Positions 52,035-61,120 of a stretch of DNA of 64,000 nt are shown here, piece after piece. This stretch comes from an uncultured Psychroserpens sp. (lineage in GTDB: Bacteria > Bacteroidota > Bacteroidia > Flavobacteriales > Flavobacteriaceae). Every line of letters starts with the position of its first letter. The first letter of the stretch is position 1. The DNA lies in the NCBI RefSeq assembly GCF_947503375.1, contig NZ_CANNDQ010000003.1, positions 186,001-250,000 on the forward strand, in the 5' to 3' direction. The notes under the pieces are model-generated. The model saw only the letters and a program-made list of their open reading frames with translations. It had not been told where the DNA came from and made no database searches. Made by a program: the position numbers and the translations under genes.

Positions 52035-52078
52035 GCAGGTGTGGTGGAATTGGTAGACACGCTAGACTTAGGATTTAA
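52035..52078 (+). pseudogene. Truncated tRNA-Leu (5' half only)
   Basis: GCAGGTGTGGTGGAATTGGTAGACACGCTAGACTTAGGATTTAA matches the 5' half of the downstream tRNA-Leu, then diverges after the anticodon arm. Confidence 0.85.
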
Positions 52079-52108: not shown

Positions 52109-52190
52109 GCAGGCGTGGTGGAATTGGTAGACACGTTAGACTTAGGATCTAATGCCGCGAGGTGTGCGAGTTCGAGTCTCGCCGCCTGTA
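52109..52190 (+). tRNA. tRNA-Leu (TAG)
   Basis: GCAGGCGTGGTGGAATTGGTAGACACG...GACTTAGGATCTAATGCCGCGAGGTGTGCGAGTTCGAGTCTCGCCGCCTGTA; anticodon TAG, variable arm, T arm. Confidence 0.95.
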
Positions 52191-52192
52191 CA

Positions 52193-52223: not shown

Positions 52224-52250
52224 TTTAAAATAAGCTCGGAAAAATGTTTG

Positions 52251-52271
52251 GGTACAACATAGGTACAACAT
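52251..52271. repeat. Tandem 10-bp direct repeat GGTACAACAT (11-bp period)
   Basis: ggtacaacat a ggtacaacat. Confidence 0.9.
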
Positions 52272-52328: not shown

Positions 52329-53990
52329 ATGGAAAAAAACTTTGTTACTCTTTTTCAGAACGGTATCAATTCTTTTTTAACTTTAGTCAAAAATTATAAC
52401 CCTTTTCATTTGCAATTTCTACAAGACTTATTAGACAATAAAGAGCCTTCCAATCGATGGCAAGATTATAGAACCTTTTGTGACAATATTAAAAATGTTG
52501 ATATAGACCTTTATGTTAAGGCACTACCAGAATTGCTTAAAAACTTAAAAAGTAACTATCCTGTAAGAAATCTTCAAATAGCCATTACTCGCGAAGCAAA
52601 AGAGGATGCTTCTTTTGGTAAAGAAATTTATTTAAAAACACTTGAAACGAAAAATCCTGATTCGTATTTTACATTAATGGATATTCTATCCGGATTATAT
52701 CATTCAGACCAAAAGTTTTCAATAGATGAAATTAAACGCCTAATCGAAGATGATAACATAAGCTTAAATGAAATAGGAATAAAATCTATCGTCAAAATTG
52801 ATTTGATAGCGAAAACAACACCAAAAACATTTGTGAGCTGGATTAAGAAACAATTCAATAGTATTATTAATAATAAGACTCTTAAGGAGTTATGGCCATC
52901 AGTTTTCTTTACCATTAGAAATAAAAGAAATGAATTAAAAAATACAGATAAAATTATAGATAAGCTATCAAGTATTAAGACTATTGAAATTCAATTAGAG
53001 CTCATTTACTTTTTGGATTACAATATAGATTTAGGTAACGAAATACACCTCTTTAAAAAATATCTTCCATTGTTGCTTCACATTGATATAGAACATGCAG
53101 GAGCGTATAATCAATTGGCTTATCGATTGGAAAATGTGGCTAAAACCAATTTAGATTTGGTAGTTGGTTTTATTACAGATTGGGTAGGGATAAGTCCAAA
53201 AAATGCTAGAAAAATAGAATATTTCAGCCATTTGCTGAATACACTTTGCGATGATTTTTATTCAGATTTCCAAAAGCTATATACAAATTGGTTAAATAAA
53301 GACAATCCAAATTTTCATATTGCCATTTTTGAAATGAATAGTGCTAGATATATGAGAGATTTATCAGGATTGACGGTTTCAGAAGTTCTAATAAAGGACT
53401 TTTCAGATTACGATATTGAATATATCACGTACAAAATACTTGCCTATGTTTATGATAAAGACACCTCTTTATCTTTGATATATTCCATACTCGAACAAAA
53501 AGTAGACAATAAAGAGGTTGTAATTTTCTTAGCTGATTTATTTATTAACCACTTAATTTTTAATTATTATTCAACTATTGAGTTTTTAAATTTAAAAAAG
53601 AAGACTGCCAATAGAAAACTTAAAAAAATAATAAAAGATATTGTTGATGAAGGGGAAGATAAATACAAGGCGTATTCAGATCTAGAAAACCTAAAAGAGT
53701 TTGCGCCTTCAGAGAGAAGAATGATATATTATAATAAAATACAGAATAGAAAATTTAATAAATCCTATAAAGAGAGTGAGTCAGAAAGTTCATCATTTTT
53801 AAGTATGATTACGAATATCAATTACAGAACGGGAAAGTCTACATTTTCAAAATACCAAGGCAAATACACCGAAAAGATGACACCAGCACTTATTTCGCAT
53901 AGTGGCGAAATGCCAAGAGGCGAATTTATAGACCCCATAGGTCAAGCAACAGAACGGTTACTATGGCAAAATTTTAAAAGAAGGCAATGA
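52329..53990 (+). CDS. Hypothetical large helical protein (first gene of accessory operon)
   Basis: ~553 aa from ATG 52329 (TTG 52311 alternative); Leu/Ile/Lys-rich helical pattern, no signal peptide; conserved-looking C-term SGEMPRGEFIDPIGQATERLLWQNF. Confidence 0.8.
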   Translation: MEKNFVTLFQNGINSFLTLVKNYNPFHLQFLQDLLDNKEPSNRWQDYRTFCDNIKNVDIDLYVKALPELLKNLKSNYPVRNLQIAITREAKEDASFGKEIYLKTLETKNPDSYFTLMDILSGLYHSDQKFSIDEIKRLIEDDNISLNEIGIKSIVKIDLIAKTTPKTFVSWIKKQFNSIINNKTLKELWPSVFFTIRNKRNELKNTDKIIDKLSSIKTIEIQLELIYFLDYNIDLGNEIHLFKKYLPLLLHIDIEHAGAYNQLAYRLENVAKTNLDLVVGFITDWVGISPKNARKIEYFSHLLNTLCDDFYSDFQKLYTNWLNKDNPNFHIAIFEMNSARYMRDLSGLTVSEVLIKDFSDYDIEYITYKILAYVYDKDTSLSLIYSILEQKVDNKEVVIFLADLFINHLIFNYYSTIEFLNLKKKTANRKLKKIIKDIVDEGEDKYKAYSDLENLKEFAPSERRMIYYNKIQNRKFNKSYKESESESSSFLSMITNINYRTGKSTFSKYQGKYTEKMTPALISHSGEMPRGEFIDPIGQATERLLWQNFKRRQ

Positions 53991-55672
53991 GATTTTTACT
54001 GAGTGAATATATTAATCTTTTAAAAGAAGATAAAGAACTTGATGTGTTGCTGACTGATCTGCTAGTTGGAATGAAATTTACAACTATCTCAAAGCCAATG
54101 AAAGGTCGTCAATTTGGTGTAGATATTTCAGCTGTAGGTATTGATCCAGAAGATGGTATTAAGAAGGTGTTTTTGTTCGCTGTAAAACAAGGTAATCTAA
54201 CAAGAACCACTTGGGATGGAGATGTCAACGCCATACGCTCAACTCTAAACCAAATTAAAGACACGTTTATTCCAACATCACTTACAAATCGTTTAAAAAA
54301 ACTTCCTAAAAAAATAATAGTTTGTACTAATGGTGTTATAAATCAAAATGTTTTAGTTGATTGGACACAATATATCGACCAGAATACTACAGATGCTGTT
54401 GAATATGATTTTTGGGGTACAGGCGAAATAACTGCAATGCTTGACGACTATCTTGTTAGTGAAAAACTATTTCCACAAGAATATCAATCATTATTAAGAA
54501 AGTCTTTGGCATTTTTAGATTTACCAGATTATGATTTATCACATTTCTATACGCTGATTCAAAAAATTTTAGACAAGCAACCCAAACAAAAAAGACAAAT
54601 ATTAAAAAAGTTAAGACTGGTACGATTATGCCTTAACATTATATATAAATGGTCTCAAGACAATAATAATTTGAAACCTTCAATTTATGCAAGTGAACGA
54701 TGTTTGTTACTAAGCTGGCACTTTATGCAAGAAGGTAATCATTTGGAGAAAAATTTTGTAAGACAGGAATTTTACAAAATCCATTCTTTAAAAAGAAATA
54801 TAGGTGTCTATTATTTTAACAAAGTTGCTAAACATTACAAAACAGAGCACAGTATATATAAATACAGCAGAAATAGTCTAGAGTACAGTCTTAATGTTTG
54901 GGAAGAAATAGGAATTATAGCAACAATAGGGTTAACGGAAATACAAGAGTTTAGAATCCATTATAGAGAAGGTAATGAAGAGCATGCTCAAACATATTAC
55001 CAAAGCGCTCTTTCAATTAGTAACGGATTATGTTTGTTTATAAAAAACAATCCACCTTCAAAATATCCAGAATACGATGTGCATAGTATTGAAATAGCTT
55101 TAGCACTTAACTTAATGAATTTTACAAGAAACTTTAACCCAGCCAAAAAATGGATTTCTGAAATGACTTTAGGTTTTAATAACAGATATAAAATAAATAA
55201 GTTTTTCCCATTGTTTAGAAAAAGTTATGATAAGCTGGTGGATATTCATAATGGAGATGAAGAATGTGAAATTCAGTCTTCAATGATAGTTCTTATATTG
55301 GCAGAATACACTTTAGTTTTAAAGGATGAAGACCTATATCAGTTTGTCCGCAAGATCCCTACTGAACTTTTTCCAGATTTGAACTTGCAAATATGGTTTC
55401 CACTTGAAGAAATGGAAAATAAAATATGTGTTCAGGATTATAGTCGTGGCGAAGGAACACTAAAACATTCTGTAACAATATACGAGAATGTAGAAGAGTA
55501 CAAAAAAGAAATGGTATCAGAAATGGAACTCTTCGGACCAGAAAAGGACTTTAAAATTTTTAAGCATAGTTTCGATATTGTTGCTCACGTTGCAAGTAGG
55601 CACTACAAAAGCCAGCCTTTTCCTTTAACGTGGCGAGTTTTAATGAAACAAGAAGTCTCAACAAAAGAATAG
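53987..55672 (+). CDS. Hypothetical protein with possible PD-(D/E)XK nuclease-like N-terminal domain
   Basis: ATGA overlap with previous gene; GRQFGVDISAVG...KVFLFAVKQGNLTRTTWDGD...LPKKIIVCTNG. Confidence 0.75.
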   Translation: MRFLLSEYINLLKEDKELDVLLTDLLVGMKFTTISKPMKGRQFGVDISAVGIDPEDGIKKVFLFAVKQGNLTRTTWDGDVNAIRSTLNQIKDTFIPTSLTNRLKKLPKKIIVCTNGVINQNVLVDWTQYIDQNTTDAVEYDFWGTGEITAMLDDYLVSEKLFPQEYQSLLRKSLAFLDLPDYDLSHFYTLIQKILDKQPKQKRQILKKLRLVRLCLNIIYKWSQDNNNLKPSIYASERCLLLSWHFMQEGNHLEKNFVRQEFYKIHSLKRNIGVYYFNKVAKHYKTEHSIYKYSRNSLEYSLNVWEEIGIIATIGLTEIQEFRIHYREGNEEHAQTYYQSALSISNGLCLFIKNNPPSKYPEYDVHSIEIALALNLMNFTRNFNPAKKWISEMTLGFNNRYKINKFFPLFRKSYDKLVDIHNGDEECEIQSSMIVLILAEYTLVLKDEDLYQFVRKIPTELFPDLNLQIWFPLEEMENKICVQDYSRGEGTLKHSVTIYENVEEYKKEMVSEMELFGPEKDFKIFKHSFDIVAHVASRHYKSQPFPLTWRVLMKQEVSTKE

Positions 55673-55676
55673 AATA

Positions 55677-56780
55677 ATGTCAAATCCAATAAAGCAACAT
55701 TATATACCACGTTCATATTTAAAGAACTTTGCAGTTGAAGGAAGAAAAAGAAATCATTTTGTCGATGTTTATAAAATGGACAATGATATGCTTTTAGAGC
55801 AAATAAGCACAAAAGATATTTGTTTTGAAAAAAACATTTATACAATTCCTGCCGAATCAGATGAAGTAAAATACGCCTTAGAAAAACATTATGCTGAAAA
55901 TGTTGATAGCGAGTTTCCAAAAATATATAAATTACTTGTTGATGAAAAGGTATTGACAGTTAGTCAAGAGCAAAAAATTCAAATACTATATGTATGTCTA
56001 TCATTATATTTTCGTACACCAAGAATTTTAAATCTTCAAAAAGGTATGAATAAACAAATCTTTGATAGGGCAGCTCATACAGCAAATGAACATGGTTTGA
56101 TAAAAATGAATTTATTTGGAGAGAAAATGGAATTTCATATTGATGAAATAGAGGAGGTTAAAAAACAGTACGATGAACGTTCAAGAACTGCCTTCTTAGT
56201 TAACCATCTTGAACAATGGGGAAACTTTGTTAAATACAAATACGATTGTACAATAAATGTAATTAAAATAGAAGATTCAAATGCGCCAATAATTACTTGC
56301 GATAATCCAGTTTCAATTAGGCATTTTGAAACTAATAAATTTCAAGGTTTATATGATCCCAAAGCAGTTATTACTTTACCCTTGGATCGTTCACATTATT
56401 TAGAGATTCATCCTAATGATTACGCAGATGGACAAACGAGAATTAATAGACTTACTCAAGACAGAGACTATGTATTTACAACAAATGGAGTTACACAACA
56501 GAATGCTGAAAACTTATTAGTAGCATACAAAGGAGATATTGATAAACATTTTGATATTCAAAACCATTATGAAAACCCAGAAAATGGAGAAGAGTTTTTG
56601 AAAAAAGCTAAATATAGGGCAGAGCAAGCCCTCGTTTTATTTGATGTTTTAAAGAAAAAAGGGTTTGTTTCAAAAGAGTTTATAGGTAAACTTAAAGAAC
56701 TTTTAGAACATCCATATTGTAAAGACGATATCCAAATGTTGAAGTACAAAAAGGTGCTATCAAAAATGGGTAAGTGGTAA
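55677..56780 (+). CDS. DUF4238 domain-containing protein
   Basis: SNPIKQHYIPRSYLKNFAVEGRKRNHFVDVYKMD (QHYIPRxYLKNF motif); IITCDNPVSIRH; TLPLDRSHYLEIHP. Confidence 0.88.
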   Translation: MSNPIKQHYIPRSYLKNFAVEGRKRNHFVDVYKMDNDMLLEQISTKDICFEKNIYTIPAESDEVKYALEKHYAENVDSEFPKIYKLLVDEKVLTVSQEQKIQILYVCLSLYFRTPRILNLQKGMNKQIFDRAAHTANEHGLIKMNLFGEKMEFHIDEIEEVKKQYDERSRTAFLVNHLEQWGNFVKYKYDCTINVIKIEDSNAPIITCDNPVSIRHFETNKFQGLYDPKAVITLPLDRSHYLEIHPNDYADGQTRINRLTQDRDYVFTTNGVTQQNAENLLVAYKGDIDKHFDIQNHYENPENGEEFLKKAKYRAEQALVLFDVLKKKGFVSKEFIGKLKELLEHPYCKDDIQMLKYKKVLSKMGKW

Positions 56781-56869: not shown

Positions 56870-57283
56870 ATGAAACAAGTATTCCATAAAGCAATGTCTT
56901 TGGCAATGGCTTTTGTAGTGTTACTCTCTACAATGTCATTTACGCTCAGTATGCATTATTGTGGAGATACTTTGGTAGAAACTGCTATGTTCCATAAAGC
57001 TGAAGGATGCGGAATGGAAATGGATAATCCTTCAACTGAAGGTTGTTCTATTACAAAAAAGAATTGTTGTAATGATGAACAATTGGTAGTTGATGGTCAA
57101 GACGAACTACAATTACAAGTTGACAAAATTTCTTTTGAACAACAAGTATTCATCGCTTCATTTGTTTATACTTATATTAACCTTTTTGAAGGTTTAGATA
57201 ACAATGTATCTTCTTTTGAAGAATACAAACCGCCACTCGTCATAAGGCAACTCTACAAAATTGACGAGACGTATTTAATTTGA
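56870..57283 (+). CDS. HYC_CC_PP family small secreted/membrane protein
   Basis: LSMHYCGDTLVETAMF...CSITKKNCCNDE...YKPPLVIRQLYKIDETYLI; start trimmed from 56840. Confidence 0.8.
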   Translation: MKQVFHKAMSLAMAFVVLLSTMSFTLSMHYCGDTLVETAMFHKAEGCGMEMDNPSTEGCSITKKNCCNDEQLVVDGQDELQLQVDKISFEQQVFIASFVYTYINLFEGLDNNVSSFEEYKPPLVIRQLYKIDETYLI

Positions 57284-57391: not shown

Positions 57392-60300
57392 ATGCTAAAT
57401 AAAAGCATCAAATTTTTAATAGAAAATAAACTCGTAGCAGTTCTGTTACTCGTCCTTTTTGTAGGATGGGGAACTGTAAACGCACCTTTTAATTGGGATA
57501 CAGGATTTTTGCCAAGCAACCCTGTAGCGGTTGACGCCATTCCAGATATTGGAGAAAACCAACAAATTGTATTCACAAAGTGGGATGGTCGTTCGCCACA
57601 AGATATAGAAGACCAAATCACTTATCCATTAACGACTTCTTTACTCGGTATTCCAGGAGTAAAAACCATTCGTAGTTCTTCTATGTTTGGGTTTTCAAGT
57701 ATCTATATCATTTTTGAAGAAGATATAGAATTCTATTGGAGTCGCAGTCGTATTCTAGAAAAACTCAATTCATTACCAAGTGGATTATTACCAGAAGGTG
57801 TTAATCCTGCATTGGGACCAGATGCCACAGGTTTGGGACAAATATTTTGGTACACTCTTGAAGGTAGAGATGAAAATGGAAATGTTACTGGTGGTTGGGA
57901 TTTACACGAACTGCGTAGCATTCAAGATTACTATGTGAAATATGCTTTATCTACTGCAAGCGGTGTTTCTGAAGTCGCTTCCATTGGTGGTTATGTACAG
58001 GAGTATCAGGTGGATGTCAATCCAGAGCTGATGCGTCAATATAACATTAGTTTAAACCAGATTGTAAAAGCGGTTAAAAGTAGTAATCAAGATATTGGTG
58101 CGCAGACTATAGAAATTAATCAAGCTGAATATTTAGTACGTGGTTTGGGTTATGTGAAATCTGTTGAAGATATTGAAAATGCTGTAGTTACTTCAGAGGA
58201 TTTTACTTCAATTAAGATTAAAGACATTGGTAAAGTATCATTAGGTCCAGCAACACGAAGAGGTTTATTGGATAAAGAAGGTGCGGAAGTCGTTGGTGGT
58301 GTTGTAGTGGCACGATATGGTGCAAATCCAATGGAAGTCATTAATAATGTAAAGGCGCAAATTGAGGAGCTGAAAGGTGGATTACCTTCAAAGGTATTGG
58401 CAGATGGACGAACATCTCAATTAACAGTTGTTCCTTTCTATGATCGTACCGAGCTTATTGAAGAAACATTAGACACGCTTAATGAAGCGTTGACACTAGA
58501 AATATTAATTACCATTTTGGTTATTATTGTTATGGTTTTCAATTTAAGAGCTTCTATTTTAATTTCTGGATTGTTGCCTGTCGCCGTATTAATGGTATTT
58601 GTTACCATGAAACTGTTTAACGTAGATGCCAATATTGTAGCACTTTCTGGTATTGCTATTGCAATTGGAACTATGGTAGATGTAGGCGTCATTCTCGCAG
58701 AAAATATGATTCGCCATCTCGATGATGACAAATTACGATTACGAGAAGATGGTACAGAGTTAACTACGAATGAAGTAGTTTATAATGCGACTGCCGAAGT
58801 TTCTGGAGCGATTTTAACTGCGGTATTAACTACAATTATCAGCTTCGTTCCTGTATTTACAATGATTGGTGCAGAAGGAAAATTGTTTAGACCATTAGCA
58901 TTTACCAAAACGATGGCGTTATCAGCATCTTTGGTTATTGCCTTATTTCTAATCCCACCATTAGCAGCTTATTTATTCAGAAAAACATCATTTAAAAAGT
59001 CATTTAAATACATCATAAATGGTGCTTTAATAATTGCTGGAATAGCAATTATGGTTACTGGATATTGGTTAGGGATTATTTTAATTGCTTTTGGTATTAC
59101 TAGTTTACTTGGAGTCTTGGGTAAACTAAATAAGAAAAACAGCAATCTTGTAAATATTATTATTTCGTGTACTGCCATTATTTTTTTACTTGCCGAATAT
59201 TGGAGACCACTAGGCTTTGACAGAAGTATTTTAGTCAATCTTATTTTTGTAGCTATTATTTGCTTCGGAATTTTAGGAATATTTTCAATTTTTAGAAGTT
59301 ATTATGGACAGATTTTAAACTGGGCTTTAGCAAACAAACTTTTGTTTTTAATTATTCCAGCAACTGTGCTTGTTTCTGGAGGATGGATTATGAACAATAC
59401 AGGAAAAGAATTTATGCCATCTTTAAACGAAGGCTCTTTTCTATTAATGCCAACCTCATTACCACACTCAGGTGTTGCCGAAAATAAACGTGTGCTTCAG
59501 CAATTAGATATGGCTGTAGCCACCATTCCAGAAATTGAAACCGTAGTAGGAAAGTCTGGTAGAACAGAATCTGCATTAGATCCTGCGCCTTTATCTATGT
59601 ACGAAAACATGATTCAGTATAAGTCTGAATACATGCGTAACTCAAAAGGAAAAAGACAACGTTACAAAGTAAATGACGATGGTGCTTTTGAGTTGAAAGA
59701 TGGAACATTTATCGCCAATCCTAATAATTCCGAAAATGTTGTTTTTACAAAAGTTATACATGCTCAACTTATCGAAGATAATGATGGCGAATTCTATCGT
59801 AATTGGCGACCAGAAATTAATAGTCCTGATGATATTTGGAATGAAATAGTTAGAGTTACTAAATTACCAGGAGTTACTTCTGCACCAAAATTACAACCGA
59901 TAGAAACCAGATTGGTAATGCTTCAAACAGGAATGCGTGCACCAATGGGAATAAAAGTAAAAGGACAAGATTTAAAACAAATTGAAGCGTTTGGATTGCA
60001 GCTAGAAACCATTCTTAAACAAGCAGAAGGTGTAAAAGAGCAAGCTGTTTTTGCAGATAGAATTGTAGGGAAACCTTATCTACTTATTGATATTGATAGA
60101 GAAAAAATAGCACGTTATGGTGTATCTATAGAAGATGTACAAAGTGTGCTGAAAGTAGCAATTGGCGGTATGGCTATTACTCAAACTGTAGAAGGAAGAG
60201 AACGCTATGCTGTTAGAGTGCGATACCCTAGAGAGCTACGAGGTAATCCAGAAGATATAAAAGGCATCTATATTCCTGTTGAAAAAGGAAGTCCTATTCC

Positions 60301-61120
60301 ATTAAGTGAATTAGCGACGATTCGGTATGAGCAAGGTCCACAGGTAATTAAAAGTGAAGACACCTTTTTAGTTGGCTACGTGTTGTTTGATAAATTAGAT
60401 GGGTTTGCAGAAGTTGATGTTGTTGAAAATGCGCAAGCTTTATTTCAACAGAAAATAGATTCAGGAGAATTAACTGTTCCAAAGGGCATCAGCTATAAAT
60501 TTACAGGCACTTATGAAAATCAGTTACGAGCAGAAAAAACGCTTTCTGTTGTCGTTCCATTAGCACTTGCTATTATTTTCTTGATTCTATATTTCCAATT
60601 CAAATCTGTTACTACGTCACTCATGGTTTTTACAGGAATAACAGTTGCTTTTGCAGGGGGTTTTATAATGATATGGTTGTACGGTCAAGATTGGTTTTTC
60701 AATTTTAGTTTGTTTGGAGAGAATATGCGAGACCTTTTCAATATGAAAACTATTAATTTAAGTGTTGCGGTTTGGGTAGGTTTTATAGCATTATTTGGTA
60801 TTGCTACAGATGATGGTGTCGTTATGGCAACATACCTCACGCAAACTTTTGAGCGTGAAAAACCTTCTGATAAAAAGAGTATTAGAGCTTCCGCTTTACA
60901 AGCAGCCGAAAAACGTATTCGTCCGTGTTTAATGACTACTGTAACTACCATTTTGGCGCTGTTACCAGTATTGACATCCACAGGAAAAGGAAGTGATATT
61001 ATGATACCTATGGCAATTCCAATATTTGGCGGAATGGTTATAGATATTACCTCTTATTTTATTGTACCGGTATTATACAGCTGGAGAGAAGAGTTTAAAT
61101 TGAAAAGAGCAAACAAATGA
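57392..61120 (+). CDS. CusA/CzcA family heavy-metal efflux RND transporter
   Basis: IPDIGENQQIVFTKWDGRSPQDIEDQITYPLTTSLLGIPGVKTIRSSSMFGFS; GIAIAIGTMVDVGVILAEN; GFIALFGIATDDGVVMATYL. Confidence 0.94.
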   Translation: MLNKSIKFLIENKLVAVLLLVLFVGWGTVNAPFNWDTGFLPSNPVAVDAIPDIGENQQIVFTKWDGRSPQDIEDQITYPLTTSLLGIPGVKTIRSSSMFGFSSIYIIFEEDIEFYWSRSRILEKLNSLPSGLLPEGVNPALGPDATGLGQIFWYTLEGRDENGNVTGGWDLHELRSIQDYYVKYALSTASGVSEVASIGGYVQEYQVDVNPELMRQYNISLNQIVKAVKSSNQDIGAQTIEINQAEYLVRGLGYVKSVEDIENAVVTSEDFTSIKIKDIGKVSLGPATRRGLLDKEGAEVVGGVVVARYGANPMEVINNVKAQIEELKGGLPSKVLADGRTSQLTVVPFYDRTELIEETLDTLNEALTLEILITILVIIVMVFNLRASILISGLLPVAVLMVFVTMKLFNVDANIVALSGIAIAIGTMVDVGVILAENMIRHLDDDKLRLREDGTELTTNEVVYNATAEVSGAILTAVLTTIISFVPVFTMIGAEGKLFRPLAFTKTMALSASLVIALFLIPPLAAYLFRKTSFKKSFKYIINGALIIAGIAIMVTGYWLGIILIAFGITSLLGVLGKLNKKNSNLVNIIISCTAIIFLLAEYWRPLGFDRSILVNLIFVAIICFGILGIFSIFRSYYGQILNWALANKLLFLIIPATVLVSGGWIMNNTGKEFMPSLNEGSFLLMPTSLPHSGVAENKRVLQQLDMAVATIPEIETVVGKSGRTESALDPAPLSMYENMIQYKSEYMRNSKGKRQRYKVNDDGAFELKDGTFIANPNNSENVVFTKVIHAQLIEDNDGEFYRNWRPEINSPDDIWNEIVRVTKLPGVTSAPKLQPIETRLVMLQTGMRAPMGIKVKGQDLKQIEAFGLQLETILKQAEGVKEQAVFADRIVGKPYLLIDIDREKIARYGVSIEDVQSVLKVAIGGMAITQTVEGRERYAVRVRYPRELRGNPEDIKGIYIPVEKGSPIPLSELATIRYEQGPQVIKSEDTFLVGYVLFDKLDGFAEVDVVENAQALFQQKIDSGELTVPKGISYKFTGTYENQLRAEKTLSVVVPLALAIIFLILYFQFKSVTTSLMVFTGITVAFAGGFIMIWLYGQDWFFNFSLFGENMRDLFNMKTINLSVAVWVGFIALFGIATDDGVVMATYLTQTFEREKPSDKKSIRASALQAAEKRIRPCLMTTVTTILALLPVLTSTGKGSDIMIPMAIPIFGGMVIDITSYFIVPVLYSWREEFKLKRANK

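Follow-up and report, generated by a model that had tools for sequence, protein, structure and literature searches.

An Olokun gene pair and a separable DUF4238 gene in the cargo slot of a flavobacterial conjugative element

Three consecutive genes of an uncultured Psychroserpens species were analyzed within a stretch of 64,000 nucleotides, referred to here as the window. With good confidence, we explain them as the two-gene Olokun system (oloAB) with a separable DUF4238 defence gene behind it, all seated in a slot for cargo on an integrative conjugative element (ICE) of ~65.5 kb, with the mechanism proposed below. The explanation draws on the family identity of the genes, the pairing of oloA with oloB, the borders of the element, the exchange of its cargo, a confident model of the OloB N-terminal fold and the shuffling of OloA allotypes.

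Identity of the three genes

All three genes lie on the plus strand and code for proteins of 553, 561 and 367 residues. As the earlier note had read them, oloA (52329..53990) overlaps oloB (53987..55672) by an ATGA at exactly 53987-53990, and 4 bp (55673-55676) separate oloB from the DUF4238 gene (55677..56780). Chance does not account for open frames this long (553, 561 and 367 codons) at ~30% GC that recur in other genera with the same spacing and at 88-100% DNA identity. Inspection of the three sequences revealed no signal peptide. Since the alignment of oloA with its relatives begins at 'LQFLQDLL', a TTG at 52410 is about as likely to be the start codon as the ATG at 52329.

PADLOC matched the first gene to OloA (PDLC03925, E = 9.9e-71, residues 22-552) and the second to OloB (PDLC03926, E = 1e-154, residues 1-554 of 561, essentially the full length). 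Both components thus match their models nearly completely, and they are adjacent, on the same strand and in the known order. Judged by these matches, the two genes are Olokun, a known two-gene phage-defence system. The third gene, already named as DUF4238 in the earlier note, matches Pfam PF14022 (E = 5.8e-36) over residues 6-285 with 124.8 bits against a cut-off of 27 and, by its domain, is a member of a known single-gene defence family. The defence-type function proposed for the locus is therefore supported by sequence identity, whereas its description as an uncharacterised, candidate new system is not: the locus is a good fresh example of Olokun rather than a new kind of system.

Olokun is cited as an earlier-described system in PMC10121019 (as reference 7 there) and is attributed to Millman et al. 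2022 by a citing paper. It is said to 'not be thoroughly characterized' (PMC12592470), and one published table places it under nuclease activity; our literature search found no mechanism for it. Compared with the PADLOC model, OloA of the window is ~67 residues shorter at the N-terminus, its match starting at model position 68 (68-80 in its relatives). A further difference is the DUF4238 gene that follows oloAB here. A DUF4238 protein from a P2 hotspot by itself confers strong T7 resistance (PMC9122126). The window protein has the same Pfam domain and, like it, is encoded in a variable slot for defence genes on a mobile element, but it has an extra C-terminal helical stretch. Phage records yielded no relative of either DUF4238 or OloB, so it is by Pfam family that the window DUF4238 is equated with the P2-borne protein that was tested.

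Other searches added little. Pfam and NCBIfam returned nothing usable for oloA or oloB, and matches of the first gene to DUF5113 and of the third to CARD fell below the cut-offs and were discarded. The PHROGs search gave chance-level matches only, and OloB relatives on plasmids had <32% identity. A profile search against the PDB found relatives of neither OloB nor DUF4238; the DUF4238 model was too poor (pLDDT 60.6) for a fold search to be meaningful.

Predicted fold of OloB and variation in OloA

The confident AlphaFold model of OloB (pLDDT 89.5) consists of an alpha/beta N-terminal domain (residues 1-145, encoded at 53987..54421) and a long helical C-terminal domain. The order of secondary structure elements in the former (helix 14-28, strands 32-35, 47-52 and 59-67, helix 83-98, strand 108-114) fits the alpha-beta-beta-beta-alpha-beta arrangement of the PD-(D/E)XK fold. 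The best functionally meaningful Foldseek matches were chains of the restriction endonuclease MspJI, with probabilities of 0.99-1.00 but E-values of only 0.036-0.11, which are not significant. At the level of models, this match supports a PD-(D/E)XK fold, short of proof.

Residues E17, D19, Q42, G44, D46 and K67 are invariant in 17 OloB sequences, pointing to E17/D19-D46-K67 as a candidate site. The position two residues before K67, which should hold the E/Q of the E/Q-x-K motif, is occupied by A, V or T in true Olokun and by E, giving ExK, in the three most divergent sequences. The model supports both the PD-(D/E)XK-like N-terminus and the helical C-terminus that the earlier note had suspected. 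OloB resembles the MspJI-type endonuclease domain in its fold and conserved D...K pair, but differs from it in lacking the E/Q and in having a helical C-terminus in place of the base-recognition domain.

Because the usual E/Q is missing, catalysis by OloB is not certain. The domain might instead be non-catalytic and bind nucleic acid, with Olokun working in another way, such as host-directed shutdown. We consider this rather unlikely: it would agree with the substituted motif position in most members and with the lack of a mechanism in the literature found, but D46 and K67 are retained throughout and ExK returns in the divergent members.

OloA looks like a helical-repeat protein, in keeping with the large helical protein seen in the earlier note. 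This view is based on the alignment and on weak profile matches, those in the PDB being limited to designed constructs and weak armadillo-type matches. Its N-terminal half (residues 28-265) occurs as two allotypes that are 84-100% identical within and 62-68% between them, while the C-terminal half follows a different grouping. Between the window and one relative (L040), dS of oloA is 1.0 in the N-terminal half and 0.03 in the C-terminal half; relative to two others (L041 and L058) the values are 0.17-0.22 and 0.8-1.06, respectively. Such sequence patterns show that the halves have been shuffled by intragenic recombination. The N-terminal half may be the sensor, but its breakpoints could also stem from neutral recombination at the left end of the element rather than from exchange of specificity. 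Where copies of oloA diverge, dS exceeds dN severalfold in either half, which indicates purifying selection on the gene.

In the mechanism that we favor, the helical repeats of OloA, mainly those of the variable N-terminal half, would recognize something made by the phage, and OloA would then release or position OloB. The helical C-terminal domain of OloB would hold the complex, and its N-terminal nuclease domain would cut DNA, thereby stopping the infection.

The conjugative element and its cargo slot

The locus lies between a tRNA-Leu and a metal-efflux cluster, as had been noticed before, and these neighbors proved to belong to a mobile element. A 14-bp core (GCTAGACTTAGGAT) at 52061-52074 (attL), repeated at position 303529 of the same contig (C3), delimits an insert of 65,468 bp. 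The element has split the host tRNA-Leu, leaving the 5' part at 52035..52074 (plus strand) and the 3' part outside the window (G000:C3:303529-303585); joining the flanks restores a complete tRNA-Leu (tag). The intact, empty site is present in two congeners (G781 and G779; 95% and 91% identity, respectively, over all 150 bases). Four other congeners (G776, G778, G780 and G782; loci L098-L101) have the same tRNA-Leu split by related elements with the same backbone, and each insert carries, at its left end, an intact tRNA-Leu (tag) next to different cargo. Likewise, the intact tRNA-Leu (TAG) that ARAGORN detects in the window just inside the left end (52109..52191, plus strand) is carried by the element. 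A 25-bp end sequence (beginning GGGTACAACATAGGTACAACA) at 52246..52270 is repeated at the other end (C3:303405-303429) and is possibly an integrase arm site.

The element has a tyrosine integrase with Arm-DNA-bind_5 and SAM_5 domains at its far end and a type IV coupling protein inside. Together with the att sites and the empty sites of relatives, these features identify it as an ICE. It is like the tRNA-targeting ICEs of Bacteroidota in its integrase, coupling protein and insertion into a tRNA gene, but here that gene is split by the insertion and an intact tRNA-Leu arrives with the element.

Comparison of sequences shows that the Olokun/DUF4238 cassette occupies an exchangeable cargo slot just inside the left end. 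The DUF4238 gene forms the right border of the variable part. It is followed by a gene for a small secreted-looking protein (56870..57283, plus strand), which is the first of the metal-efflux module and in many relatives borders the slot on its constant side, and by an RND-family (ACR_tran) metal-efflux pump (57392..61120, plus strand), cargo of the same element. The window's cassette and metal module recur in Hyunsoonleella ulvae with 99.3% identity over 9.6 kb, compared with 78% for the host flank, showing recent transfer between species. Psychroserpens mesophilus and Hanstruepera ponticola have only the three-gene stretch in common with the window, and Olleya only oloAB.

Further defence cargo was observed on the same element. 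A four-gene set on the minus strand (L008:24-6175; G000:C3:267523-273674) has an architecture like Wadjet JetABCD; PADLOC recognizes JetC alone and weakly (E = 2.5e-4), and the set is possibly a divergent Wadjet-like system. A KAP-family NTPase (L007:13512-15374) matches the candidate defence family PDC-S49 (E = 3.5e-71), while an HNH/ABC-3C CTD10 protein and a DUF2326 ATPase (L006:3301-6040) match the candidate pair PDC-M68A/B. Finally, an 849-residue protein resembling Tiamat TmtA (E = 1.2e-143 over the first 590 residues) precedes a Schlafen AlbA_2 protein (L008:13911-17533).

Association of DUF4238 with Olokun

The earlier note had treated the three genes as one unit. To see how often they co-occur, we compiled genomes with a strong OloB match (at least 400 bits): 14 of 400 genomes sampled from the family plus three (G559, G594 and G726) from the phylum sample, 17 in total. 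In nearly all relatives oloA and oloB are adjacent with overlapping ends. An intact DUF4238 gene directly follows Olokun in 5 of the 17 (G000, G017, G073, G155 and G232), and in one (G077) it adjoins convergently and carries a stop. The remaining 11 have no adjacent DUF4238; four encode it elsewhere and seven have none at all. Conversely, only 6 of the 37 family genomes having DUF4238 have it next to Olokun. Thus, oloA and oloB travel as a pair, whereas DUF4238 is separable, and a new three-gene system was rejected on co-occurrence.

The slot itself tells the same. In G341 (L047) oloAB directly abuts the same metal module, with no DUF4238 between them, while sister elements keep a 55-99% identical DUF4238 gene in the same place behind other cargo. 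In four genomes (G122, G108, G133 and G177) a copy 88-90% identical follows genes for proteins of 703 and 244 residues, the former a pAgo in the copy annotated (G122); in two (G162 and G324) one 56-57% identical follows a three-gene set that includes an HNH-like protein. A congener (G046) has a 99% identical copy after a DUF4365-containing 904-residue gene, with the last 32 oloB codons left as a scar between the two. Because DUF4238 occurs apart from Olokun and behind other upstream cargo, we regard it as the constant edge of the exchange slot and not as an Olokun subunit.

Two observations concern DUF4238 in other settings. In L083:3012-8247, with a similar layout in L084, L085 and L089, the genes for pAgo (703 residues), for the 244-residue protein, which matches no family, and for DUF4238 are preceded by an ApeA-HEPN-like gene (annotated in L083); the set is possibly an operon and perhaps a way of arranging pAgo that has yet to be described. 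In L093:4164-10919, a divergent DUF4238 gene is the last of an operon that also encodes a type II methyltransferase and an HATPase protein.

It could still be argued that the locus is a true three-gene subtype of Olokun, in which DUF4238 is an effector or regulator needed for protection. The 4-bp gap, the same order and the high conservation in five genomes and in most close loci on genome contigs would speak for it, as would the neighboring copy in G077. However, the stop in that very copy, the 11 genomes without an adjacent gene, the G341 arrangement and the unrelated systems ahead of DUF4238 in sister elements make it improbable. Slightly less credible still is a role of DUF4238 as a plug-in third gene that acts as effector or helper for interchangeable upstream sensors placed by cargo exchange: Olokun here and, under the same joint reading, pAgo-HEPN, the HNH three-gene set or the DUF4365 protein elsewhere. 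That the locus is a broken or passenger one without defence function is very improbable, since, despite the oloB scar in G046 and a near-identical Winogradskyella luteola copy (L037:4344-8793) with frame breaks in oloA and DUF4238 (either decay or sequencing error), all three window genes are intact and oloA is under purifying selection.

We therefore retain Olokun with a separable DUF4238, which we infer to act independently and which would provide a second line of defence. Because it sits at the constant edge of the slot, it is probably co-transcribed with whichever system lies upstream. The most useful parts of this case are the natural OloA swaps and the replacement of the tRNA by the element. 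With near-identical Olokun systems whose main difference lies in the N-terminal half of OloA, the clade offers a natural swap experiment for finding the phage trigger, and a single conjugative element spreads swappable defence and metal cargo among marine Flavobacteriaceae while the host keeps its tRNA-Leu.
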